The notes under the pieces were generated by a model. It was given only the letters and a program-made list of their open reading frames with translations. It was not told the origin of the DNA and made no database searches. A DNA stretch of 48,745 nt from a virus. The translations under genes were made by a program, and so were the position numbers. Shown here piece by piece: positions 4,615-40,823 of the stretch. Where the stretch lies: the IMG/VR virus record IMGVR_UViG_3300023109_000037, positions 1-48,745 of that record. One strand, written 5' to 3'. The stretch's first letter is position 1, and each line of letters opens with the position of its first letter.

Positions 4615-7101
4615 ATGGCAATTTCTAAATACACAAGAATAGGTTTGAGGGCAGATAAGAATTTAGATGATCTTCTAAATGCACCAGCCGCCTTAGCAAA
4701 TGTTCTTGACGACTTTACGCTAGGAGAAACATTTGTTCCCGGTGATTTAACTGTTATCAACGGATTAAGCACAACAAATGTATTTGCTTCAGATTTAGGT
4801 GAAATCGTAGACATCGATGTATCATTCACATCAGTATCTTTAGATGAATCAGGCAATACTATTGTAGGATTACCTGCTCCTCTAGAACCTGCAATAAGAG
4901 TGAAAGATACTCTTGAAGAGAAGTTAGTGCTTACTGGTAATCCAATATCATACTTTGGTGGACCTGGGCCCAAAACATTTGTGGTACCCTCTTCTGAACT
5001 TGATGCAAACTGCGGGCAACTAACATCACCAACTGTGTCAGCAGATGATGTTTTTGATACAACAAATGCCAATGGTAACTTAATACTACCAAACGATTAC
5101 TGGCTAGACGGCAGATTTGCATTCTCAGATGTATTCCACCCATCACTACAAGATTCTTTTGGTGGTATTTGTTGGGATGGGTACATGACATACAGATCAA
5201 AAGATAATCAAAACTTTTTTATTTCAACGAATGCATTTTACATATTTGAAATATATGATGATGCTACAACTACGTGGACAACAATACAATCACTCACACA
5301 AGAAAGCGTTGATGTAGTAACAACAGGTGCTGTATCAAATGCAGTTGCTATCACTGTAAGCGATTCTGATTTTGCAAAAGTGTTTGTTGGAATGAAAACA
5401 ACAATCAACTCAGCAGAATTCGAAATTACTGAAACTAATCAATCGACAAACACAATTACATTCATCCCGGCAGGAAGCGCAGTAGATTTCACATTACTAA
5501 ACGGCGCAACAGTGACTTTGAATTGGACAATAGGTGAAAATGTATTAAGGGGACCTAATTATTTCCCTATACAAATTCCTTATGGTACAGGAAAAAGATA
5601 CAGATTAACAGCATGGTATCCAAAACCTGATCAATTTGCAGTCAATAAAGTTAATAACACTGGGGGATTGCTCACCACTTACGGTCCTTTTGGGTTATTG
5701 TTTGACGGGACTGCTAGCGATGAAACAAATCAAATTTTCGCTGATTGGTACCCACCAGAATCAAAACCTAATGATCCTGGAATAACGCCTGCAAATTATA
5801 CATATGAAAATTTTAAAAGAAATAAGTTGGGTGCAGGAAAAAAGGACACGACCACATCTATAGAAAATGAAAGTCCTGTATTTTTAGGATATGAGCCGAA
5901 AAAAGAATCTGACGAAATTACTGATGTAAACTTCGGCGGTTTACCTAATAATTTAACACTTACATGGAAAGGCGACAATACATTCTACGGAGCACCGTCA
6001 CAGTTTTCAATAAGTTCTTTAGACATCAACGAAGGGGACATTTTATTATTTTCAGGATTAAGGGCAGCAGGACAATATTATCTTCGTGTTGCCGAAACTC
6101 GATCAAGCGGGTATATTTTCACGAACGCATTTTTACAGAATGATATGTCAGCGATCATGACAACTTTAGGGTTCAGTGTTGATGATGATATATCATTTTT
6201 TGTTATAAAACCTAAAGGTTTAGTGTGTATTTTAACAGAGACAGTAAGTGATGGGCCTACAGCAGCAGATGCATCACATTCACACGCAGGTGATGTGATT
6301 TTAAATTCGGTAAATGAGTTCAAAGATATTGATATAAGAAAAGGCGACCTCGTTTTGAATCTTGGGGCAACTACAGGTCCTCAATACTTTAGAAGAATTT
6401 CAACTGACATAGATCGATCAACAGCAACAGATGTTGCATTTGATTCAACACCCATATTCGCTGGAGATACTAGCACAACTCATGCGGGCGGGTATATTTT
6501 GATATATGCGCACAGAGGTTTGTCTGATCAATCGCTGTCGCAACAATGCGTAGGTGTGTACGGAAAAGAAGTAACAGCAAATGCAGTTACTGGCGATACA
6601 CAAATTACAATCTCATCAACGAGTGGCGTGACTGCAACAAATGCACCTACAGTCGGTGATTATGTACAGTTTGGAACAGTTGTGCCAAACGCAACAAGAG
6701 TTGCTAGCGTTGATAGCGCAACACAAATAACATTGTCAAATCCATTGGCTGCACCATTAAATGCAGCATCAACTTTAATTTTCATTAAAGACGCAAATGC
6801 AGTTGTAACCGATGGCGTTGTCGAAAGCAGAGAAGTTTGTATCATTCCTTTAAACACTGCGCCGCCCTTTGCTGGCACCGATACAGGATTGCAAACAACA
6901 TCAACACATCCACACCTTGTTATCACGGGTGATTTTGAGGTAACGGGATTGCAAATAAACACAGCAACTGTTAATAATCTTTCTGCAACATCAGGTACTA
7001 ATAGCAGTTCAGGTGCAACAGCGAATGAAGGATTGTTGTTAAAGAAACCTACAGGTGACGGATCAACTTTACAGCAATATTGGCTATTTGTAGATAACTA
7101 G
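4615..7101 (+). CDS. Virion structural protein of cyanophage/marine T4-like type (828 aa), encoded opposite to its neighbours
   Basis: The N-terminus (MAISKYTRIGLRADKNLDDL) resembles a structural protein that I recall from T4-like cyanophages; I know of no T4 counterpart. A central region is beta-rich and aromatic (YWLDGRFAFSDVF, WDGYMTYRSKDN). A domain at about residues 655-730 (GDTQITISSTSGV, VGDYVQFGT, ITLSNPLAAPLN) is a type often found in phage fibres. The extreme C-terminus is a compact QQYWLFVDN. The gene has its own rightward late promoter at 4574-4581 and ends 10 bases from the stop of the convergent 457-residue gene. It is the only complete rightward gene in the window. The role is probably fibre or baseplate decoration; this is inference. 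Confidence 0.85.
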   Translation: MAISKYTRIGLRADKNLDDLLNAPAALANVLDDFTLGETFVPGDLTVINGLSTTNVFASDLGEIVDIDVSFTSVSLDESGNTIVGLPAPLEPAIRVKDTLEEKLVLTGNPISYFGGPGPKTFVVPSSELDANCGQLTSPTVSADDVFDTTNANGNLILPNDYWLDGRFAFSDVFHPSLQDSFGGICWDGYMTYRSKDNQNFFISTNAFYIFEIYDDATTTWTTIQSLTQESVDVVTTGAVSNAVAITVSDSDFAKVFVGMKTTINSAEFEITETNQSTNTITFIPAGSAVDFTLLNGATVTLNWTIGENVLRGPNYFPIQIPYGTGKRYRLTAWYPKPDQFAVNKVNNTGGLLTTYGPFGLLFDGTASDETNQIFADWYPPESKPNDPGITPANYTYENFKRNKLGAGKKDTTTSIENESPVFLGYEPKKESDEITDVNFGGLPNNLTLTWKGDNTFYGAPSQFSISSLDINEGDILLFSGLRAAGQYYLRVAETRSSGYIFTNAFLQNDMSAIMTTLGFSVDDDISFFVIKPKGLVCILTETVSDGPTAADASHSHAGDVILNSVNEFKDIDIRKGDLVLNLGATTGPQYFRRISTDIDRSTATDVAFDSTPIFAGDTSTTHAGGYILIYAHRGLSDQSLSQQCVGVYGKEVTANAVTGDTQITISSTSGVTATNAPTVGDYVQFGTVVPNATRVASVDSATQITLSNPLAAPLNAASTLIFIKDANAVVTDGVVESREVCIIPLNTAPPFAGTDTGLQTTSTHPHLVITGDFEVTGLQINTATVNNLSATSGTNSSSGATANEGLLLKKPTGDGSTLQQYWLFVDN

Positions 7102-8496: not shown

Positions 8497-11400
8497 TTAA
8501 CTATTAAGGTTTATAGTCCAATTTTTCGATCTTAAAAACTCGAGGAATGCGCCTGCAACAGTGTCAGATGCAAGATCACTTTCGCTCACCCTTGGGTTAC
8601 CTGTCAAATTGACTGTCACTCTTCTACTGGATTGTGTATTATTTTCCCAGTTTATTTTCAAATCTTCTAGTACTGCTATAGCAGCGCCTCGAGTCAAGTT
8701 ATTATTTTGAAGTTTTAATTCTGTTAACTTAGTCAACATTTGTATAGATCCTGATGTATACCCAGTAAATACATTATTTGACAGTTGAATTTTTTGTACT
8801 TTTCTGCAATTATTGAAACTAGGTATAACACCTGAAATAAAATTATCTTTCGCACTAAATAACCATACGTTAGGAAGATTTAAAGATGATATTAATTGGA
8901 AACTGTTTTCATCGAGAATAACCTGTGAAACAGAATTATTATTTAGCGATAATGTCCCACCGAAGTTATTTCGTATCAAATCTAACTTATTCAATCTTGA
9001 TGAATTGCTGAAATCGGGTAATGTCCCTTGTAATTGCGTATTTTTCAATTCAAAAGTGTATATATTAGTTAAATATTGCAAATTAGGCAACTTGCCTCTA
9101 ATATTTGTACCTGATGATTTTGATTTACCTTCACCGTGTAATGTGAATGTGGATAATTTAGCACCTACAGGCTGAAATACGCTTGATGTGCCTTGTTGCT
9201 CTGCATTACTTTGCGACTGCGCTAAAACTCTTCTGACAGGTCTAACAACAAATGGTGCCTCTTTAAGGAATGACACAACTTCACCTGATGTAAAATCTAC
9301 TCCTAATCCTTCCAAAGCACTTTGTGAAGAAACCGTTGATGACCACACAACTCCAGATTTGCCTCTAATTATAATTTTTTTAACTTCAAAATCCCTGTTG
9401 TATGCAGAAATCCTAATATGATATTTTCCTGCTTCTTGAATAACAAATTTAGTGATTGGAGAAAATGGTAAGGTTTGGTTGTTGACTAGATCGAAATACC
9501 CAGTGAAATTTGCAGATCCGTCTGAATTCAATTCACTTGGCGTTTCAGTTCCGTCAAGTTCATCAAAATCACCTTTAAACAATTTCATGTTACCATACTG
9601 CACAAATCCTGGGTTACTGCCCGCTGACAATGTGAAAGTAATGCCATACTTATCTAAGTTTGCTGCTGAAGCATCAGCATCGCAGTTATGAGGATCCTGA
9701 CTCAAAACATAATTTATACGACTTTGTGGGTTTCCTGCTTGGCTGGTGGACAAGGGAGTATAGGTATCATTGAATGAATTTGAAAATTCTATATGCATAG
9801 CAGGTCCAAATGTGACAACACCATCTCTCTTGTATACAGTAATCGTTCCCTTCATTGAGGCAGGATGTGTAGAGCACTGATAATAATAAGTTTCTGCATT
9901 TGCATTACTCGGAGTGCCGAACAACCTTGAATCAAATGTTACTGTTGTTGCTGCACTCGCCGAAATTATTACATTTCCCGCTCCATCTGTTATTTCAAGA
10001 GGGTGCGAACCACCCAAGGCGGACACATTAAAATTAACCACATCTCCGTGCAACAAATCAATGGCCGGGTCAGCACTGGTTATTGCGCCGTTTCTATCAA
10101 TAGGACTAGATGAAATATCAAATACATAATCAGTTGAACTGTTGGTTCCTGATATTGTATAGTTATATGTAATCTCATGTTGAGTTAAATTATAAGTAGT
10201 TGATAAATCACTATCAACAGACAACTGAAATGTACTTGGTGTAGCGTTTTTGACATACAATATTTTAGGCGAGTTGCTGGACGAGGTATATCTTCTGTTC
10301 GGATCAAGATTGTACAAAGCGAAATTATTTGGTGTAGTAAGACCTTGAGTATCAAAAGATGTTTCATCATAATCATACTCTAATGCCATTCCATTCTTGT
10401 ACACATGATTCGGTAATGCAATTGTATTAGCATCAGGATCTATATTTCGTACAGGTATGTCAGTATAAAAAGAAGCAATATTTTCAGATACGTGGTTGTA
10501 TGATCCGAATTGCTTTACTTCTGAACCTTGAATTTCATGAATTGAATTAGCACCTATCTCTGCCTCTAATACATATGCGCCGATATCTAAGTCCAATGTT
10601 TGAACGATGCCGTTATGTCCAGACAATTGCCCAGCTGGGTCAACACCCGTACCTTGATATGCTGTAGCATACGTCTGCCCGGCATCGATGCGAAACGGCA
10701 ATGAAAAATCTTGCGTTACTTTTATGTATCCTGAAGGCAGTAATGTCAAAGGTGAACTTGAATTTATTGATTTCCATCCGGTAAGTCCTCCAGAAAAGTC
10801 GCCGTTTTGAGTTGCCTCAGTACTGGCAACAGTTTCAAACGCTTGCGCACCACCTGGAGCAAATCCTGAAATTGTTGTTTGAACGGGATTTTTAGTTGGC
10901 GTGTTAGTATATGTTGCGTTATATGTTGGCGTTAATGCAAATTCATTATTACCTTGTGTAATATCGTTATCAGCATTAGTGGGTTTGTACATACGATACA
11001 ATACTTCTAACTCTTTAATAGAAGGTATATACCAATCGTTATATGTCAAACCTAACTCTGAATCAGAAACATTATATGCATCTGCGTATTTTGCTGCTCT
11101 AAAATCAGTATCGTTTGAGGCCGCTTCAACAGCAGTGTTATCATCACCTTCAATGTTGCTGTATGCGCCGCCTAATATTCCGCCGCTATCAGAATCATAT
11201 CTAGGCAAATTAGTAGTGGCTGAGTTATCTGCTACAACTAAATAAAATTCATTGCCTGTACCGTCTTCCATTGATCCTGAATAAAATCCGCCTCCATATG
11301 CACTACCAATTGATCCTGGAGTGGGATTATCAATAGGAACATAAGAATTCCCGAAGAAATTATCAACCCCTACTGTACTCGTATACAAACTTCCTGTATT

Positions 11401-13146
11401 TGTAAAAATACGTAGGTTTGTTGTTCCAGTGAATGTTCCTGAATTCATTCTTCCTGACATTCTAGTATTAGTTAACCGCAATTCTCCTAAACTCGGAAGA
11501 TTGTTAAATGTTGATGAAATATTGCCTGTAACTTGTGAGTCATTAAAACTAAGTATCTTGAGGTCAACACACCCAGTGAAGAAGTTTGAAATATCAACAT
11601 TAGCATAAGAATTATTATTTGTGTGATAATATTCGACTAAATTTGCTTTACCAGATACATTAATAGGCGCAACCCTATTATAGCTCAAGTTTATTGACAC
11701 GAGTTCAGGCGAGTCAAGAGTAATCGTATTACTCACGCCGACACTACCTGATGATGTTTCTATTGAATTTAATTCATAATTCGCATAACAATCCAATGAT
11801 TTTAAGGTCAGAGACTCTTTAATTTCATACGGCAAAATACCAAATCTTTGCCTTCTTATATTATAACTTTCTATAGTTAAAGGATTAACTCTAGGTGCTA
11901 CAGCATTAAACCCACCAATCATTGGCCAGACAATTCCTGTTAACGGGCGATCGCCTTGCATTTTAAATGATTTTAACGCTGAAGGTCCAGTTGTATTTGT
12001 GCCACTCACCTTTAAAGTTCTTAGGTCTATAGGTGTTGAGTCTCTAAAAGCACCGCTTATATCCAACACTTCAACTGAACTTGGGATCTTTGCATTCAAT
12101 TGCACATTTGCAACAATACCGCTTTGCGACAAAGGATTACCCGCAACATTTATATTAACTAGCGATGAAGTGTGTCCCGATATGTTTCCACCGCAAATCT
12201 CGAAAAAATCAGGCAACACTGACAATAAATTACTTGCAACATTAATCTTTTGAATGTTTTTCACCTGCACCGCAGGGAACGTATCCATGTTTATCGGCTG
12301 CGGCTCATCATTCGATTTTATAAACTCTAATTCCAAAATCTTATCAGGTCGATAATAAATATCTATGCGTCTATCAGTAGCAAACCTTGTATTAAAACTA
12401 GCGACATTAGTTGCAGCACCTCTTGCTCCATTAGATATTACTTCAGTATCCTGATCTAGATCGTAAAATAAAACGGTAGGAACTATGGGAGGATTATCTA
12501 CAGTTACTTTGTATTGCAATCTTGCTTTACTAAACGATCCATAAAATGAAAACGGGATATTTCTCATAGCAAAAACCTCACGATCTGTGCCATTTATATT
12601 GATTACAACCTTATCTGTAGGTTGCTCCGCTTCAAATCGTTTCGGTGTAAAATCTTTAGACAACATCAAATCATTTAGTTTCAATATCGCATCGTTATTA
12701 TTATCTCCAACAACAAGAACGTCTGCGCCATAAAATATAGGACCATTTTCAACAAATTGTGACCATGACGAGACACGACTCGTTGAAATGTCTGACTTCA
12801 CTAATTGATGACTAACTTCATCAAGGTAAGTATATTTTATAGATCCTGCTCTAAATTGATTATTGGCACGAATGTCAAAATCTAATCCTTGTTTAAAATC
12901 TTTTTCGTTTTGTAACTCAGCGTTTAAAACTCTTAATCCGAGTTTTATTTGATATGTTTGTTTTTCTTGATCTACGTCAAGTCCTGACAGCATATGTAAC
13001 TGAAGTCGCCCAAAACCCTCAACATCAGATAATCCTCGTATGTGATTTAAATCATTACGATCTAAACCCAAGTTCCTCAATGATTCATTGACGTTGTTGA
13101 CATCACCTAAATTATTAGAAACTCTTAAACCTGTATATATAGTCAT
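8497..13146 (-). CDS. Giant leucine-rich-repeat tail protein with DUF1566-like and cupredoxin-like inserts (1549 aa)
   Basis: Two leucine-rich-repeat regions, about residues 298-600 and 1330-1549, have plant-like repeats (for example LQGTLPDFSNSSRLNKLDL and NVFTGYTSGSIQMLTKLTEL). Between them, residues about 612-770 look like a DUF1566/Fibrobacter-paralogous-domain unit (GNEFYLVVADN, then NDWYIPSIKELEVLYRMY). Residues about 900-990 carry a variant of the NHVYKNGMALEY module. Residues about 1005-1106 look like a cupredoxin with candidate copper ligands H1048, C1091, H1094 and M1098 in GGSHPLEI and YYYQCSTHPASMKG. The N-terminal 290 residues probably anchor the protein to the baseplate. The start overlaps the upstream stop by one base (TAATG). 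The domain set fits a receptor-binding or surface-sensing fibre; that role is inferred. Confidence 0.88.
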   Translation of the reverse strand: MTIYTGLRVSNNLGDVNNVNESLRNLGLDRNDLNHIRGLSDVEGFGRLQLHMLSGLDVDQEKQTYQIKLGLRVLNAELQNEKDFKQGLDFDIRANNQFRAGSIKYTYLDEVSHQLVKSDISTSRVSSWSQFVENGPIFYGADVLVVGDNNNDAILKLNDLMLSKDFTPKRFEAEQPTDKVVININGTDREVFAMRNIPFSFYGSFSKARLQYKVTVDNPPIVPTVLFYDLDQDTEVISNGARGAATNVASFNTRFATDRRIDIYYRPDKILELEFIKSNDEPQPINMDTFPAVQVKNIQKINVASNLLSVLPDFFEICGGNISGHTSSLVNINVAGNPLSQSGIVANVQLNAKIPSSVEVLDISGAFRDSTPIDLRTLKVSGTNTTGPSALKSFKMQGDRPLTGIVWPMIGGFNAVAPRVNPLTIESYNIRRQRFGILPYEIKESLTLKSLDCYANYELNSIETSSGSVGVSNTITLDSPELVSINLSYNRVAPINVSGKANLVEYYHTNNNSYANVDISNFFTGCVDLKILSFNDSQVTGNISSTFNNLPSLGELRLTNTRMSGRMNSGTFTGTTNLRIFTNTGSLYTSTVGVDNFFGNSYVPIDNPTPGSIGSAYGGGFYSGSMEDGTGNEFYLVVADNSATTNLPRYDSDSGGILGGAYSNIEGDDNTAVEAASNDTDFRAAKYADAYNVSDSELGLTYNDWYIPSIKELEVLYRMYKPTNADNDITQGNNEFALTPTYNATYTNTPTKNPVQTTISGFAPGGAQAFETVASTEATQNGDFSGGLTGWKSINSSSPLTLLPSGYIKVTQDFSLPFRIDAGQTYATAYQGTGVDPAGQLSGHNGIVQTLDLDIGAYVLEAEIGANSIHEIQGSEVKQFGSYNHVSENIASFYTDIPVRNIDPDANTIALPNHVYKNGMALEYDYDETSFDTQGLTTPNNFALYNLDPNRRYTSSSNSPKILYVKNATPSTFQLSVDSDLSTTYNLTQHEITYNYTISGTNSSTDYVFDISSSPIDRNGAITSADPAIDLLHGDVVNFNVSALGGSHPLEITDGAGNVIISASAATTVTFDSRLFGTPSNANAETYYYQCSTHPASMKGTITVYKRDGVVTFGPAMHIEFSNSFNDTYTPLSTSQAGNPQSRINYVLSQDPHNCDADASAANLDKYGITFTLSAGSNPGFVQYGNMKLFKGDFDELDGTETPSELNSDGSANFTGYFDLVNNQTLPFSPITKFVIQEAGKYHIRISAYNRDFEVKKIIIRGKSGVVWSSTVSSQSALEGLGVDFTSGEVVSFLKEAPFVVRPVRRVLAQSQSNAEQQGTSSVFQPVGAKLSTFTLHGEGKSKSSGTNIRGKLPNLQYLTNIYTFELKNTQLQGTLPDFSNSSRLNKLDLIRNNFGGTLSLNNNSVSQVILDENSFQLISSLNLPNVWLFSAKDNFISGVIPSFNNCRKVQKIQLSNNVFTGYTSGSIQMLTKLTELKLQNNNLTRGAAIAVLEDLKINWENNTQSSRRVTVNLTGNPRVSESDLASDTVAGAFLEFLRSKNWTINLNS

Positions 13147-16100
13147 TACTGCTCTCTTGAAGTTACCGTCATCTGTACATCTGCTGTCGAATTAGGTCCT
13201 GTGCTTGCAACAGGAACTGCTTTAAAATAAATTGCTTTATTGTTATATAATCCAGGAGTCAAAAACTCTCTATCAGCACCGAATATGTTTTCCAATCCAA
13301 ATTTTACAGCTTCATTTTCGCCCACATAAAATGAATACAATGTTAATCCATCAGAAATAGGGTTACCTGTTGATGTGTCATATTTAACACTTGTTAAATC
13401 ATTCGTATTAATGAAATTTGAAGGACTGAACACATGTGATGTCAACGAGTCTTTCTGAATAGATATATTAGATGTTTCATTCCCAGTAACATTAAATAAC
13501 CCATCGTCCGTAGTCCCAATAAAATTAGGAACATGTGATGAAGCAGTCGTAGCTGTAAATTCTTCAACAATAATATTATTTATTCGAGCGTTTGACTTCA
13601 TTGCGATAAACAAATATAGAGGTTGAATATTGAACCTATATATTTCTGTAACCTCAAAGTCTTTGCTGGGATCAATTGCACTTAATATATTAGCAGATTT
13701 CAAGGTTATAGTTTTTGCTTGAATACTGGTCGCATGATATTGATCATCATATGTAGCGGGATTGCTAGGATTTGAAGGATTAATCAAGAAGTCATCTAGT
13801 GTCGCACCGCCACCTGTTTTTGAAATAAATGCTATGAATTTTGTATCATCGCCAACTTGAACGGCAATTGGAATAGAAGTGAATACATATCCTGTAGCGT
13901 TTCCTGCAAACCCTAGTTCAGCAACATTCAATGTACGATCTGAAATGGGTGGGTATGCACCAGCATTAGAAGATGTGAACACAACTCTGAAATCGGAACC
14001 TGCCTCAACACCAACAGTATCAATTGAATCTATTGCATAATCTATTGCAGAGACAACACCCTCTACAACCCCAGCGCTTCCGGAAGTTCCGTTAAAGGGT
14101 CTGTCAGTTGAAGAAATTCTATAATCTTGTTCAAATCTTGTGCCGTCACCCGGATCGCTTTCAGTGAAATCGACATCTTTTTGAACATCTCTGTCTTGTG
14201 ATTTGTTTGCCCATTCAACGTGAAGGTGATCATGCACATCAAATCCGGGAATATTATGTATTGTCTCACCTTCTGCGAATGTTGTTGGGTCAGTGGGGTA
14301 AACTTTAAAATTATCATAAGATCCAAACCTTAAGGCGCCAACAGGAGTAGGAGTTCCGTCAACATCAACATTTTCAGTTACTATGTTAGGTTCATCACCT
14401 ATAACGCCAATTGCAAAATCAGCAAAGAATTTATTGCTTCCATCAACTAATCTAGCATTAGGGTTCAAGAAATGAATTTTAAATTTGTTTTGATTAATGG
14501 GTGTTGTAGATGCAACTACACTTCTATACCCTGATACTCTAGCGGTAAAACCTTGTCTTGTTAAACCAGTATCAGTGGGGTGCATATCGTATATGCCACT
14601 TGATTGAGTTGTATCTTCGATTCTTTCTCCGATGTCTATAGATCTTAATTCATAATCATTCCTTCTCAAAATAGATGCGAGGTTGGCAGAAGTTTCTGAT
14701 GTCTGACTGTCAACATCTGGATTGAGGTAAATATTATAAAAACCTTCTCTGATAACTTTTGCGTTTTTGTCGAATGGCGAAAATGTATCGGCAGTAGTGT
14801 TTTTTAATGATATTTGATTCAAAGATAAAACATCAAAGGTAATATTCTTTTCAAATCTTTGACCTGCACTTAAACTCACAGATTTTGTCCCGTGTTGTCC
14901 GTCAGGTGTAACATTAACTTTTAGAACATCTATTCTTACAGGTTTTGTTGAAAATGCAGATAGAGTTAGTGGATATATTTTTTTGTTATTGACTATACCT
15001 TCATTAACATCATCAGGATCAAACAGTGCTGTACTTTGAATCAATTTTTTAGGATGTAATGCGACAACACTACCTCTAATAGCAGGATTTGTAAATGTTT
15101 TTGTGTCACTTGTAACACTTGTTAAACTTGTTGTTCCTTCGTCACCGCCATCAATATAGTATGATGACCCATACTTGTAGATAAATGTAGGTTGTAGCAA
15201 ATTAGACGTTTGATTATTATATAAAACATATCTAAATTTAAAGTCAGCATTTTGCAATACAGGTTTCGGTAACTTGTTTTCAATTATTAAAGTATGCATC
15301 AACACCCATCGTGCTTCCCCGCTACCGATTGGAACATACGCATAAAATTTTGCTCCAATTGCACCGTACCATGAGTATTCTATTTTATACATAGTAACTG
15401 TTTCAGGTTTTAATATATGACCTGATGGGCCTGTGCCGTCTAAAGGATCCCCGTTCCATTTGTCTCTTGGTATTTTAAGAGTGTACATAGGTTTTGAGCC
15501 GTCACGACTCGGAGGGACTTCTTTTGTCTGCGGTTGAAAATCTGTACCAGGGATAAGATCCATTCCATTAGGATCTTCTAAAACATCGATGGGGATTGCA
15601 GCAGTTGACCTACGAACAATATTTAACTTTGTACCCTCAACTTGAAACATATATTGATCAGTATCGTTTGCGCAACCCCATTCAATTTTATCTGCTAAAG
15701 ACGCAGGGTTGTTACGCAATCTTAATCCAAAGGTGAATCCTGATACACGACCAGGTTGATACCTAAATGATTTCCTACTTTCGAGAACACCTATTGATGT
15801 GTTTTCATCATCACCACCCGGACGAGTTATTTCAGGACTACAGTATGCTGAAATTTGCTGATATTGACCTACCGCAGGAATAGGATTTGCAGTCAATGTT
15901 TGCGTCTTGAATGGGAATGTGGTGAATTTATCAAATCCTGTTTGAATTGTGTATTTAGGATATTGATCAATATCATTTTGAATTTTGTAGTAAAAACCTG
16001 TCCACTTTTCTATTTCATCCATGGCCACTTGAGAACTTGAATTAGTGTCAGATGCATACAGCACATTGTGAAAATCTACCTCGTCAAAGAATCCGCCAGG

Positions 16101-36114: not shown

Positions 36115-39069
36115 TTATGAATTGAAATCAACAATATTTTCATTACTTGCTTCTACTAATAATGCAAATGCTGTTGGAATAACCTTTGCATTAAGGCCCA
36201 AATCAGAACCATTTGTGTCTGCAACAAACACAGAACCTACATCGTATGTGATGCCAGAAGTATTTGCGGCTGCATTCCACCTAAGTTGGATTTCAGCAGG
36301 TGTTCCGCTGTCACCTATACTAACAATTTGATACCGTTCGTTTTGAACAAGACTTCCTCCAGGAATCAGATATTCTAATTGAGAGTAACCCACACCATCG
36401 GCGTTTGCATCATCTGGATCGTACTCTTCAATATGCAATAATTCAATTGTGGTTTCAGTTCCTGTGTCAGCAAATAAGAATAAGTCGTAAGGTGTTCCGT
36501 TATATGTAACAGATGTTTCTAGTGTTATTGCATCAAAATTTATTTTTTCTATCAGTTGATCTAATCTTTCCACTACTGCTTCGGCAAGATCATTAGCATT
36601 GCCTGCTGCATATCTAATAAATGCCAAATAATCAGCGTTTGTCACATCATTAACAAAATTTTCACTATTGGCATCGCCAGCGACACTACCAAACTTTCTG
36701 CCTCCAGAATCATCTGTATTTAACAAGGTTGATAGTTGTGCTGCATTTAAACTGTCTTGTGATTCAAGAAGCATAGCGTACCCTACAGTTTCTAAATTCA
36801 AACCGAAATGTCTATACACCAATCTTTGATCTGTTATTGATTGATCTATTGCGCCATCAATGCTTGGTATCAATTCATCAACTGTTGAGATTAATGGCGT
36901 TCCGAATAACTTAGTTCCTGCAACATGCGTTACATTCTTAACTGTTTCTTCATATTTTGAAACATCTAAAATAGTTGACACATCGTATGAAAATTCTTGA
37001 TAGTAATAATTATCTCTTATAAACCTGTTGTTGTCAGATAAGTGTGATGCTTTAGTAACCCAACTGCCGTCTGTATTACCCATTCCATTAACTACAATTT
37101 CACCAAGGCCAACTTGTTGATTAAATTTTGGACTATCCTCGTCAATGTTAATCAATCTAACAGTTTCGCCGGTTTTGTATCTATAACCTGATTTTGTAAC
37201 ATCAATAGTTTTAATTTGACCTGATAGATAATTTGCATCACCAGTCACAATCGCATTACCACCCGAAGGATTTTCTTTTGTGAATGATACCGACCGAACA
37301 TTTATAGTACGACCTTTAAATGATACTGCACTACTATCACTTTCGTTATCGAAAGTATATATGCTTAGTGGCTGGAAAAAGAAAATATTATCTTCCCTAC
37401 GAACAAACTGCGCTCGAACAATATGAGGTATGAGCAAACCAGGATTGACAAAACTGCCATCAGGGTTCTGTGACAAATCTTCAATCATGATTTGTTGTTC
37501 CATGATCTCACCTTCAGAGATAATGAAATCATTTTGATCAAATGTGACAGCAAAGTTCCCTTTCCTCAAATCGAAGATCGGGGGATTTCTCATTATAACA
37601 CGTACATTGTTTTTATAGTCTATACCCGAACTGAGAACCTTTATTTCTTCAATGCTTCCCAACTCAAGTCTCGTCACACCTAGAGCATCTTGAATTTTAG
37701 TTGATATGTTATTAGGATTAATACGCCCGCCCATATTAAAGTTAGCAGAATCTAAAGGAACAGATAAATAGTCTTGTATGAGGTCCGAGAAAAATGCAAC
37801 ATTTTCTGAGTTATTCAATGATCCTATTTCAAAATCTGCTGAATCATTGTATCTTGTAGCATTAACAACATCTAATGTTACTGTGTGTGCATCACCTGGT
37901 CTTGTGACAGTCGCTTGTGTTCTTGGGTTATTGTATTCTTCTGTTGGTTCAACAAAATCTTGTTCATTGACAGTATTCACACCTGTCGTGTCTCTTGCTA
38001 CAAGCGCACCTGCAGTATATGGTGCACTCAACGTCTCGGGTTCAGAGTCAAGATACACAATAGGATGTTCATATGCAACAACAACACCTGAACCATCAAA
38101 TCTTTTATTTGGTATCACAACACCACGAGATGTGAATGATACCGCAGCTGCGGTTACAACATCAAATGGTTTTATGTCAACTTCATCTCCTGACAGAATG
38201 AGAACTTGAGTTGATTTGTAAATAGTGGTCGAAGGGGAATCTGTACTGTAACCCCAACCAGGGTTTTTTAACACCCAGTCAACAACACCCGTAGGAATAT
38301 CAGAAACTTCTCTTATTCTTGCAGTTGCATTTACACCTGTATTGTCAGAAATTAATTTTAAATTATCGCCAATTTTATTGTCTGCAGTTGCATCTCTATT
38401 AATGACATTAGTTGAGGATATTGATCCGTAAATAAGTTTTCCGGGATAGATAACATCGCCTGTTGTACGTGTGACCTTTATACCATCATCCGTTATGAAT
38501 CTTCCAAACACATTTGATATAAATCCGACAGGAACTATACAACCGTTGATGTTAAAGAAAAGCATTTCATCAACAAATGCTGATGCCCCTGTTGTATCAC
38601 CCTCAATCACATCTCCCTTTTGAATAGGAAACCCGTCAATTTTTGTGACAGGAAGAAACTCGATGAATGTCGAGAATGCCCATTCAGAATCAGATAGTGA
38701 TAAAATAGAGGACGCAGGATAATATGTTTCAATTTCAACTTTGTAGAATAACTTAAATAACAATTCAAGCGCTTCTGGAGTACCTTTACTGCGATACAAG
38801 TCGGCAATGTTCTTAACAAGGAAAGGTATATCGTCTAATGTTTCATTAACAAAAGGAAGACCACCCAAATACTTCTTTTTATAATATTTTAAAAACCCTT
38901 CTAATGTGGTATCAATGTCACGTATTTTAGAAAAGTTTCTTTCGCTTGTGTTATCAAGATATTGATAATACTCTTTAACGAACTCAACAAAGGTTTGACC
39001 TTCTTTTGCGTAATGATCAGGTATTTGAGTGGGTATATTATCCGATATACTTGAAGGTCTATATTCCAT
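36115..39069 (-). CDS. gp7: Baseplate wedge gp7-like protein (984 aa)
   Basis: This gene lies between gp6 and gp8, as gene 7 does in T4, and its length (984) is close to T4 gp7 (1032). The N-terminal region is conserved in marine T4-like phages as I recall it: FVEFVKEYYQYLDNTSERNF, YLGGLPFVNETLDDIPFLV and SKGTPEALELLFKLFY. Three related beta modules occur in the body (GWGYSTDSP near 270, GIDYKNNVRVIM near 481, GYRYKTGETVRL near 628). A separate module at about 912-963 (RYQIVSIGDSG...W...ITYDVGSVFVADTNG) also occurs in the 457-residue protein. Assignment to gp7 is by position, length and overall pattern, not by a diagnostic motif. The start overlaps the gp6 stop by one base. Confidence 0.75.
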   Translation of the reverse strand: MEYRPSSISDNIPTQIPDHYAKEGQTFVEFVKEYYQYLDNTSERNFSKIRDIDTTLEGFLKYYKKKYLGGLPFVNETLDDIPFLVKNIADLYRSKGTPEALELLFKLFYKVEIETYYPASSILSLSDSEWAFSTFIEFLPVTKIDGFPIQKGDVIEGDTTGASAFVDEMLFFNINGCIVPVGFISNVFGRFITDDGIKVTRTTGDVIYPGKLIYGSISSTNVINRDATADNKIGDNLKLISDNTGVNATARIREVSDIPTGVVDWVLKNPGWGYSTDSPSTTIYKSTQVLILSGDEVDIKPFDVVTAAAVSFTSRGVVIPNKRFDGSGVVVAYEHPIVYLDSEPETLSAPYTAGALVARDTTGVNTVNEQDFVEPTEEYNNPRTQATVTRPGDAHTVTLDVVNATRYNDSADFEIGSLNNSENVAFFSDLIQDYLSVPLDSANFNMGGRINPNNISTKIQDALGVTRLELGSIEEIKVLSSGIDYKNNVRVIMRNPPIFDLRKGNFAVTFDQNDFIISEGEIMEQQIMIEDLSQNPDGSFVNPGLLIPHIVRAQFVRREDNIFFFQPLSIYTFDNESDSSAVSFKGRTINVRSVSFTKENPSGGNAIVTGDANYLSGQIKTIDVTKSGYRYKTGETVRLINIDEDSPKFNQQVGLGEIVVNGMGNTDGSWVTKASHLSDNNRFIRDNYYYQEFSYDVSTILDVSKYEETVKNVTHVAGTKLFGTPLISTVDELIPSIDGAIDQSITDQRLVYRHFGLNLETVGYAMLLESQDSLNAAQLSTLLNTDDSGGRKFGSVAGDANSENFVNDVTNADYLAFIRYAAGNANDLAEAVVERLDQLIEKINFDAITLETSVTYNGTPYDLFLFADTGTETTIELLHIEEYDPDDANADGVGYSQLEYLIPGGSLVQNERYQIVSIGDSGTPAEIQLRWNAAANTSGITYDVGSVFVADTNGSDLGLNAKVIPTAFALLVEASNENIVDFNS

Positions 39070-40823
39070 TATGCGGGCCTTGTGATTACCGTTGTATCTT
39101 GTTGACGTATTCTAAAGATTCGATCCTTAGGACTTCTGAAATCTTTAACCTTAGGTTCAACAGAAATTTCAATTGCGGTGCCTTCGAATGATGCTACAAT
39201 CAAATCTTTTAATATGATTTCCCCTGTACCGTAATTCACTGTACCTAAATCTTTCTTATATACAGATCGTAAAATATCATTTGATATAATCGCTTGTACA
39301 ATGCCTTTACCATTATCCTGTAATTCAACAACTGTATTATCAATCGTGAATCGAGTCGATGTTACACATGGCTTATAGTCAGTCAATCCGTTTGTTGCAT
39401 TGAATGGATATGGTTTGAGCAATTCTTGTTTAAATTCGAATGTAGGACTTTCAATAGCATTCAATTGTGGTTTATAATCAAACATAGGTTTCATTGATAC
39501 CGCAACTGAAACGATTGCATCATTTGCCAAGGATAACTGATACGTCAAATCTGACGAACCTAAATTAGCGGCAAATTTATTTAAGTATGTTTGCGAATAT
39601 GTAGTCAATGCATCTCGAACGAGTGATTCTAAACCTGCTGAAGTTGTCAACATTTCGTTTCGATCATACAAAACATTAATCGATGTCTTCGCATACATGA
39701 ACTTCGCTTCTTGGAATATGGGTTCAATCGATAAAGGACTTTTCGTTTTAATATAATCTTTGTATAATGCTAGTTCAGTTGAAGCAGCACCATCACGACC
39801 TTGTACATCAACAGCGATAATCACACGACCATATTGTGGTGGGTTTGCTTCGTCACCACCAAACACTGAAATATTTTCAATCTCGGGAAATTGTGTCTTA
39901 AGCAATACTTCATAATCACTAGCAGTTACAGCACGATCCTGAACCTGAAACGCTTTAGGCGCAAATTGTTTTATTGATTCTAATGATTCAGCATCTGCGC
40001 CGCCTACGGATAATCCTACAGGAGTCACAACAATAGCACCTGCTCCTAATGCTCCTGCATTCGTACTAAACGATTTAACACCATTTGCTTGTTCACCAGA
40101 ACATACACGATACGATATTTCTACTCTATCAGTTGCAGTTGGTTGATACCCAAATACTGTTTGTCCAAATTCTATAGAATACTTATCATTTAATTCTGGT
40201 TGTAAATAGAATACCCTATCATTTTCAACAACACCAAATATACCTGTAGCATAACGATATTCAACATCATTTACAAATACACGAACACTACGTGTATCAA
40301 TTGATGAGTTTGACAATAATGGATTATCAATATCTAATACTTCAGATATAACACGACCTTCATATATAGCAACATCTGAAACTTCAAACACATTCGAATT
40401 TGCTTCTAAACGAGTTGCCACATGTGGTTTATTCGTAATAAACGTATAGGATATATTACCACATCTACCTAAGAAAGATGTTCCACGAGGTATATTAAAC
40501 GCATTACTTTCTTGATTATTCGTAATACGAAGTGATACAAGTGCCGCTGCTGAACGTCTAGAGCGTGGTAAATAATTTAATTCTTTTGCATGAGATACAA
40601 CACTATTCTTTAATTGTGCGGAATCAAGAAATGTTTCCCCTAACGTCAAATTATAATACTGCATATTACTATACGTATTATACGCCAATAGATCAACAAG
40701 GATATTCATGTTTGATCCTTCAAAATCAAATCCTTTGAATTGATCTTGATTACGTAAATGCGTTAACAGGTCAGCTTTAACTGCCGTAAAATCAAGGTTA
40801 GTGTATGGTGCTATTTTTGCCAT
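39069..40823 (-). CDS. gp6: Baseplate wedge protein gp6 homologue (584 aa)
   Basis: The N-terminus (LDFTAVKADLLTHLRNQDQF, then FEGSNMNILVDLLAYNTYSN) is characteristic of gp6/gpJ-type baseplate wedge proteins, in which gp6 dimers form the ring that joins wedges around the hub. T4 gp6 is 660 residues. Later segments include APKAFQVQDRAVTASDYEVL and VIIAVDVQGRDG, common in this family. It is three bases downstream of gp25, its functional partner: gp25 and gp6 form the conserved core of contractile injection baseplates. Its stop overlaps the start of the gp7-like gene (TAATG). Confidence 0.9.
   Translation of the reverse strand: MAKIAPYTNLDFTAVKADLLTHLRNQDQFKGFDFEGSNMNILVDLLAYNTYSNMQYYNLTLGETFLDSAQLKNSVVSHAKELNYLPRSRRSAAALVSLRITNNQESNAFNIPRGTSFLGRCGNISYTFITNKPHVATRLEANSNVFEVSDVAIYEGRVISEVLDIDNPLLSNSSIDTRSVRVFVNDVEYRYATGIFGVVENDRVFYLQPELNDKYSIEFGQTVFGYQPTATDRVEISYRVCSGEQANGVKSFSTNAGALGAGAIVVTPVGLSVGGADAESLESIKQFAPKAFQVQDRAVTASDYEVLLKTQFPEIENISVFGGDEANPPQYGRVIIAVDVQGRDGAASTELALYKDYIKTKSPLSIEPIFQEAKFMYAKTSINVLYDRNEMLTTSAGLESLVRDALTTYSQTYLNKFAANLGSSDLTYQLSLANDAIVSVAVSMKPMFDYKPQLNAIESPTFEFKQELLKPYPFNATNGLTDYKPCVTSTRFTIDNTVVELQDNGKGIVQAIISNDILRSVYKKDLGTVNYGTGEIILKDLIVASFEGTAIEISVEPKVKDFRSPKDRIFRIRQQDTTVITRPA

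Follow-up and report, generated by a model that had tools for sequence, protein, structure and literature searches.

Known cupredoxins and metal sites of marine phages

Cupredoxins are best known for carrying electrons and as domains of enzymes. The best described of those considered here, amicyanin and plastocyanin (PF00127), are free electron carriers, whereas the domain analysed in this study sits inside a phage structural protein, encoded in a 48.7-kb record of a marine virus of bacteria (IMG/VR record IMGVR_UViG_3300023109_000037, positions 1 to 48,745; hereafter, the whole of this stretch is called the window). The likeness lies in the fold, as modelled for a homologue, in the order and position of the His, Cys, His, and Met residues, and in a ligand loop that joins the final pair of strands. 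A cupredoxin is also known from the same phage groups, since a list of genes carried by 10 cyanophage genomes includes petE, encoding plastocyanin (PMC3037559). However, petE is a metabolic photosynthesis gene, whereas the window-type domain is part of structural proteins.

A metal site in a tail adhesin has a precedent of another kind. Iron-binding HxH tail fibres are described for T4 (gp37) and alterophage R22Y, and for marine phages a role of such fibres as receptor bait has been put forward (PMC11705849). They share with the window protein a metal site in a tail adhesin, which is a candidate site in the case of the window protein, but they carry repeated HxH motifs and differ in fold, metal, and ligands from a single His/Cys/His/Met site in a cupredoxin.

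Among phage proteins, the C-terminal domain of the cyanophage gp9 baseplate wedge-tail fibre connector (PHROG 677) belongs to the same family as the window domain (P0001, E 1.6e-12), and the cupredoxin domain forms the gp9 C-terminus in many cyanophages. The gp9 copies that we read keep the ligands, as the window domain does. Nevertheless, the gp9 proteins seen have about 220–490 aa with the domain at the C-terminus, whereas the window protein has 1549 aa with the domain in its interior, and outside the cupredoxin domain it has no gp9 match. Among isolates, the window domain scores highest against PHM1_104 of cyanophage P-HM1 (37.6% identity, E 8e-10), a large protein whose gene adjoins gp13; no similarity between it and the window protein is reported outside the domain. 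In the open-licence literature, searched by titles and abstracts, no report was found of a cupredoxin, plastocyanin-like, or copper-binding domain in phage virions, an absence that is not proof. The fold is old, and the new part appears to be a recurrent virion module with an intact predicted site, of which the window copy is one family member.

A cupredoxin domain within a putative tail adhesin

Genes neighbouring the domain match PHROGs for baseplate wedge, hub, tail-lysozyme, tail, and virion structural proteins, which marks this as the part of a T4-like phage genome that encodes the tail structure. The features discussed below are as follows, all on the minus strand.

8497..13146, minus strand: 1549-aa structural/adhesin protein with a cupredoxin domain (open reading frame; baseplate/tail gene cluster; orthologue)
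10870..11052, minus strand: Lcl_C/DUF1566-like stretch, residues 699-759 (YNDWYIPSIKELEVLY; Pfam PF07603, E 6e-7, 30.1 bits, cut-off 34.9)
9829..10134, minus strand: cupredoxin domain, residues 1005-1106 (PF00127, 21.1 bits; family profile; homologue model and PDB fold search)
10003..10005, minus strand: His1048, putative first copper ligand, in a His-Pro pair (its column aligns with the first His of amicyanin/plastocyanin)
9874..9876, minus strand: Cys1091, putative thiolate ligand (translation, family conservation, alignment to amicyanin/plastocyanin)
9865..9867, minus strand: His1094, putative second His ligand (translation, family conservation, alignment to amicyanin/plastocyanin)
9853..9855, minus strand: Met1098, putative axial ligand (spaced x3 from His1094, where most relatives have x2)
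8695..8820, minus strand: C-terminal leucine-rich-repeat-like stretch, residues 1443-1484 (Pfam LRR_8, E 5e-5, 23.5 bits, cut-off 27)

The 1549-aa protein looks like a multi-domain tail adhesin with leucine-rich-repeat-like stretches, an Lcl_C/DUF1566-like domain, and then the cupredoxin, and its gene neighbourhood suggests that it is a virion component. Its Pfam matches to Lcl_C, LRR_8, and Copper-bind (residues 1057-1104) are sub-threshold but plausible. In the phage collection, the protein has no full-length relative and its residues 1-70 have no match; as a whole, it has no PHROG match. One orthologue was found, encoded by a single gene on contig L010 (L010:4807-9384) and 34% identical over residues 1-1547, and the Lcl_C, LRR_8, and Copper-bind matches are common to both proteins in identical order. 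The Lcl_C/DUF1566-like stretch (10870-11052), also present in L010, is a possible host-binding domain.

Translation of 9829-10134 yields residues 1005-1106, which contain DLLHGDVVNFNVSALGGSHPLEITD and, further along, YYYQCSTHPASMKGTITVYK. An earlier sequence-only reading had placed H1048, C1091, H1094, and M1098 in this region and had described a Cys-x2-His-x3-Met spacing between those of amicyanin (x2-x2) and plastocyanin (x2-x4), and the translation confirms both.

Evidence for the cupredoxin fold

When isolated, the window domain scores 21.1 bits against Pfam PF00127 Copper-bind, whose gathering cut-off is 21.2, and it scores 16.0 bits inside the full protein; the cut-off is passed by the homologous domain of contig L084 (24.1 bits) and by the L010 domain (22.8 bits). 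A family profile, in which the window domain is itself a row, has a sole match in the window at 9835-10101 (E = 4e-19). Neither of the NCBIfam equivalogs for amicyanin and plastocyanin proper (TIGR02657 and TIGR02656) is among the matches listed for the window domain, and the best homologues reach 20-25 bits, far from the respective cut-offs of 110.2 and 87.85.

Against the PDB, a nine-member family profile picks up plastocyanin (E 1e-6) and amicyanin (E 5e-6), and with a 96-member profile all 52 matches at E<=0.01 are cupredoxins or cupredoxin-containing enzymes. In the profile alignments, the His, Cys, His, and Met of the family are superposed on the copper ligands of amicyanin and plastocyanin, an alignment that suggests that the four residues cluster in space. 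A control profile lacking the ligand loop (last ~17 residues cut) finds no cupredoxin in the PDB; thus, it is largely the ligand loop, together with its adjoining strands, that supplies the sequence evidence.

Structure prediction was most informative for the L084 homologue, which is 34-46% identical to the window domain depending on the alignment. The cupredoxin fold is a Greek-key beta-sandwich with about 8 strands; the L084 model, built from a 96-row alignment in which the window and L010 are represented, has nine strands (pLDDT 96.8, pTM 0.89), and all 50 of its listed PDB fold matches are cupredoxins, with TM (query) of 0.47-0.62 and with plastocyanin, rusticyanin, and nitrite reductase at the top. 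Strands E86-92 and E99-105 of the model, its last two, flank the Cys-His-Met loop. When the window domain itself is modelled, from 30 homologues, the pLDDT is 73.9 and the top PDB matches are weak and mostly Ig-like (TM ~0.3-0.4), and these matches were not used; against BFVD, a giant-virus blue copper protein ranks second (rmsd 3.1). A cupredoxin fold, as the sequence-only reading had proposed, is what prediction returns for the homologue: by homology and modelling the fold is well supported for the family, and the window domain, as a member, probably shares it.

Conservation of the four ligands

The orthologue from L010 retains all four ligands in its cupredoxin region, AHPLQ...YRYRCQNHSSMVGTITV, with the commoner x2 spacing before Met; HP...YRCQNHSSM stands at the equivalent position despite a protein identity of 34%. 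Homologues at roughly 30-46% identity likewise have the ligands in common with the window domain. A close-relative search with the bare window domain found no viral-contig relative, and the homologues were reached via cyanophage copies, by searches with short patterns. Because some of these patterns contained ligands, ligand-free copies are under-sampled in the counts that follow, although many of those counted are second or third copies that came with contigs retrieved on account of a different one.

The collection holds 423 instances (281 distinct), reduced to 134 non-redundant copies at <80% identity. His/Cys/His is retained in 123 of the 134, with Met as the putative axial ligand in 116 and Gln in 7. 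Conservation at the ligand positions is 0.92-0.96, against a median top-residue frequency of 0.40 over columns. The invariance of Cys, His, and Met in one alignment (A3) was not used as evidence, since its rows had been picked for C..H..M. Hence, the metal-type ligand set that had been noticed in a tail protein is real and under constraint, but it is not the isolated oddity that it had seemed and belongs to a recurrent marine-phage module. Similarly, the x3 spacing is an exception: among the 123 His/Cys/His copies, Met lies at x2 in 114 and at x3 in 2 (the window and L175), so that the family norm is the amicyanin-like x2-x2 and the window shows a minor variation.

Where another letter stands at the Cys column, the second His is absent as well in all nine copies and the first His in six of them (Fisher p 4e-14 and 1e-8, values that ignore kinship and are not true probabilities). 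A metal site predicts all-or-none loss, and the joint loss of Cys and second His fits this prediction. In the family alignment, there is no second conserved Cys that could form a disulphide.

The site differs from the standard one. The residue after the first His is Pro in 120 of the 128 copies having that His, including His1048-Pro1049 in the window, whereas it is Asn in the solved amicyanin and plastocyanins shown. The backbone NH after the first His gives a hydrogen bond to the copper-bound sulphur, which Pro cannot provide, and we predict that spectrum and potential may differ from those of plastocyanin. Gln, in turn, is the axial residue of stellacyanin, and Met-to-Gln substitution is familiar in copper proteins. 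The seven Gln-for-Met copies (L019, L022, L024, L037, L044, L061, and L164) read CHxHTGQG or CHTHTNQG and offer a natural series for copper-site tuning.

Spread among phages and bacteria

With the window domain as query, 197 phage records are found at E<=0.1, nearly all of them cyanophages; at E<=0.001, other family queries find 326 (gp9 type), 159, and 24 phage records in overlapping sets. Three single-query scans of IMG/VR found 93, 233, and 160 relatives. Isolates other than cyanophages include Pelagibacter phage Baldr and Methylophilales phage Melnitz, in both of which the protein is annotated as a tail fibre. Genomes may carry several copies (four in P-HM1, two in Syn9), and the annotations seen for the phage proteins are hypothetical, tail fibre, virion structural protein, and baseplate wedge tail fibre connector. 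The domain is also present in the small-genome cyanophages P-SCSP2 (37 kb) and P-GSP1 (45 kb) and thus is not restricted to large T4-like phages. Taken together, several hundred sequenced marine phage records contain structural proteins with a cupredoxin fold and an intact ligand set. In cyanophages S-H9-1 and S-BM3, the domain lies within proteins annotated as subtilisin-like or S8 peptidases.

Among bacteria, marine Flavobacteriaceae are the main carriers of the module, which forms the C-terminal end of the protein in several. Contigs L264, L268, L270, and L271, from marine Flavobacteriaceae/Bacteroidetes, encode it: in L264 it closes the reading frame after seven DUF285 repeats, in L271 it also ends the reading frame, and in L268 it follows a signal-like N-terminus. 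These copies raise the possibility of exchange between phages and bacterial surface proteins.

Possible roles of the metal site

Our favoured explanation, which we consider probable, is that the domain is a cupredoxin with intact ligands in the style of type-1 copper, used as a marine-phage virion module and most likely serving as a copper-locked beta-sandwich in an adhesin. Marine phages would build the cupredoxin modules of this family into baseplate, tail-fibre, and other virion proteins, where the beta-sandwich may act as a spacer or binding module. The metal, most likely copper, would be acquired from the host or from sea water and would link the Cys-His-Met loop, which joins the final strand pair, with the His of the loop opposite. 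A loop stiffened in this way could keep the exposed end of the module rigid and thereby provide a contact surface for a fibre subunit or for the host. A structural or adhesive role, without electron transfer, is preferred because many unrelated virion proteins, as well as repeat-domain proteins of bacteria, contain the module, and because the window holds no hint of an electron-transfer partner.

The copper might instead be used chemically, for copper or redox sensing or as bait for a host metal-uptake receptor (a copper "Ferrojan horse"). The complete ligand set under clear constraint and the position of the domain in tail and baseplate proteins are consistent with such a use, as is the bait proposal for iron-binding HxH fibres (PMC11705849), but no redox partner is seen in the window, and the occurrence in many unrelated structural proteins, in four P-HM1 copies, and in bacterial proteins suggests a general module more than a bait. 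We regard chemical use as unlikely; a redox or copper-sensing role in particular is possible but unsupported. It is also quite unlikely that the site is real but purely structural and occupied by zinc or iron instead of copper. Conserved ligands do not by themselves identify the metal, and the Pro in place of Asn beside the first His departs from classical blue copper; yet a cupredoxin fold with His-Cys-His-Met has the ligands of type-1 copper, and the change from Met to Gln in seven copies is one known from copper proteins such as stellacyanin.

One may argue that the domain is a metal-free beta-sandwich of cupredoxin descent in which the conserved residues serve folding only, since some copies without all or most of the ligands still have the domain and many phage beta-sandwich modules are metal-independent. 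However, Cys and the second His are lost together in nine of nine cases, and few positions are as conserved as the ligands (92-96%, against the median top-residue frequency of 0.40), which makes a metal-free module distinctly improbable. A chance CxxHxxxM resemblance in an unrelated beta-rich domain would agree with the weak model of the window domain itself and with the loss of the cupredoxin match once the loop is cut from the profile. This is extremely improbable given the conservation in the orthologue and across the family, the high-confidence cupredoxin fold of L084, and the L084 and L010 scores above the Pfam cut-off.

Under the favoured copper-locked module, the presence of an unlabelled domain in hundreds of marine phages implies that their particles may routinely contain copper or a metal like it. 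Copper is scarce and tightly complexed in sea water. If the modules are metal-loaded, these particles would be copper carriers in that environment, and copper, like iron, would have to be considered among the things that may influence phage stability and adsorption. A bolder reading, that marine phage particles are copper proteins in which copper of the baseplate or fibre recognises the host or triggers infection through redox change or exchange, seems to us rather unlikely.

Other observations in the window

Two further genes of the window deserve mention. An 828-aa gene at 4615-7101 lies on the plus strand within a cluster that is otherwise on the minus strand, and its L010 counterpart (10594-13188) is in opposite orientation too. 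By eye, its beginning, IGLRADKNLDDLLNAPAALANVLDD, is similar to that of the 1549-aa protein, perhaps reflecting a docking motif in common. In addition, the gp6-like baseplate protein (39069-40823) is closest to those of Sinorhizobium phages phiN3, phiM12, phiM19, and phiM7 (~40%), compared with 31% for cyanophages; thus, the host may be an alphaproteobacterium.
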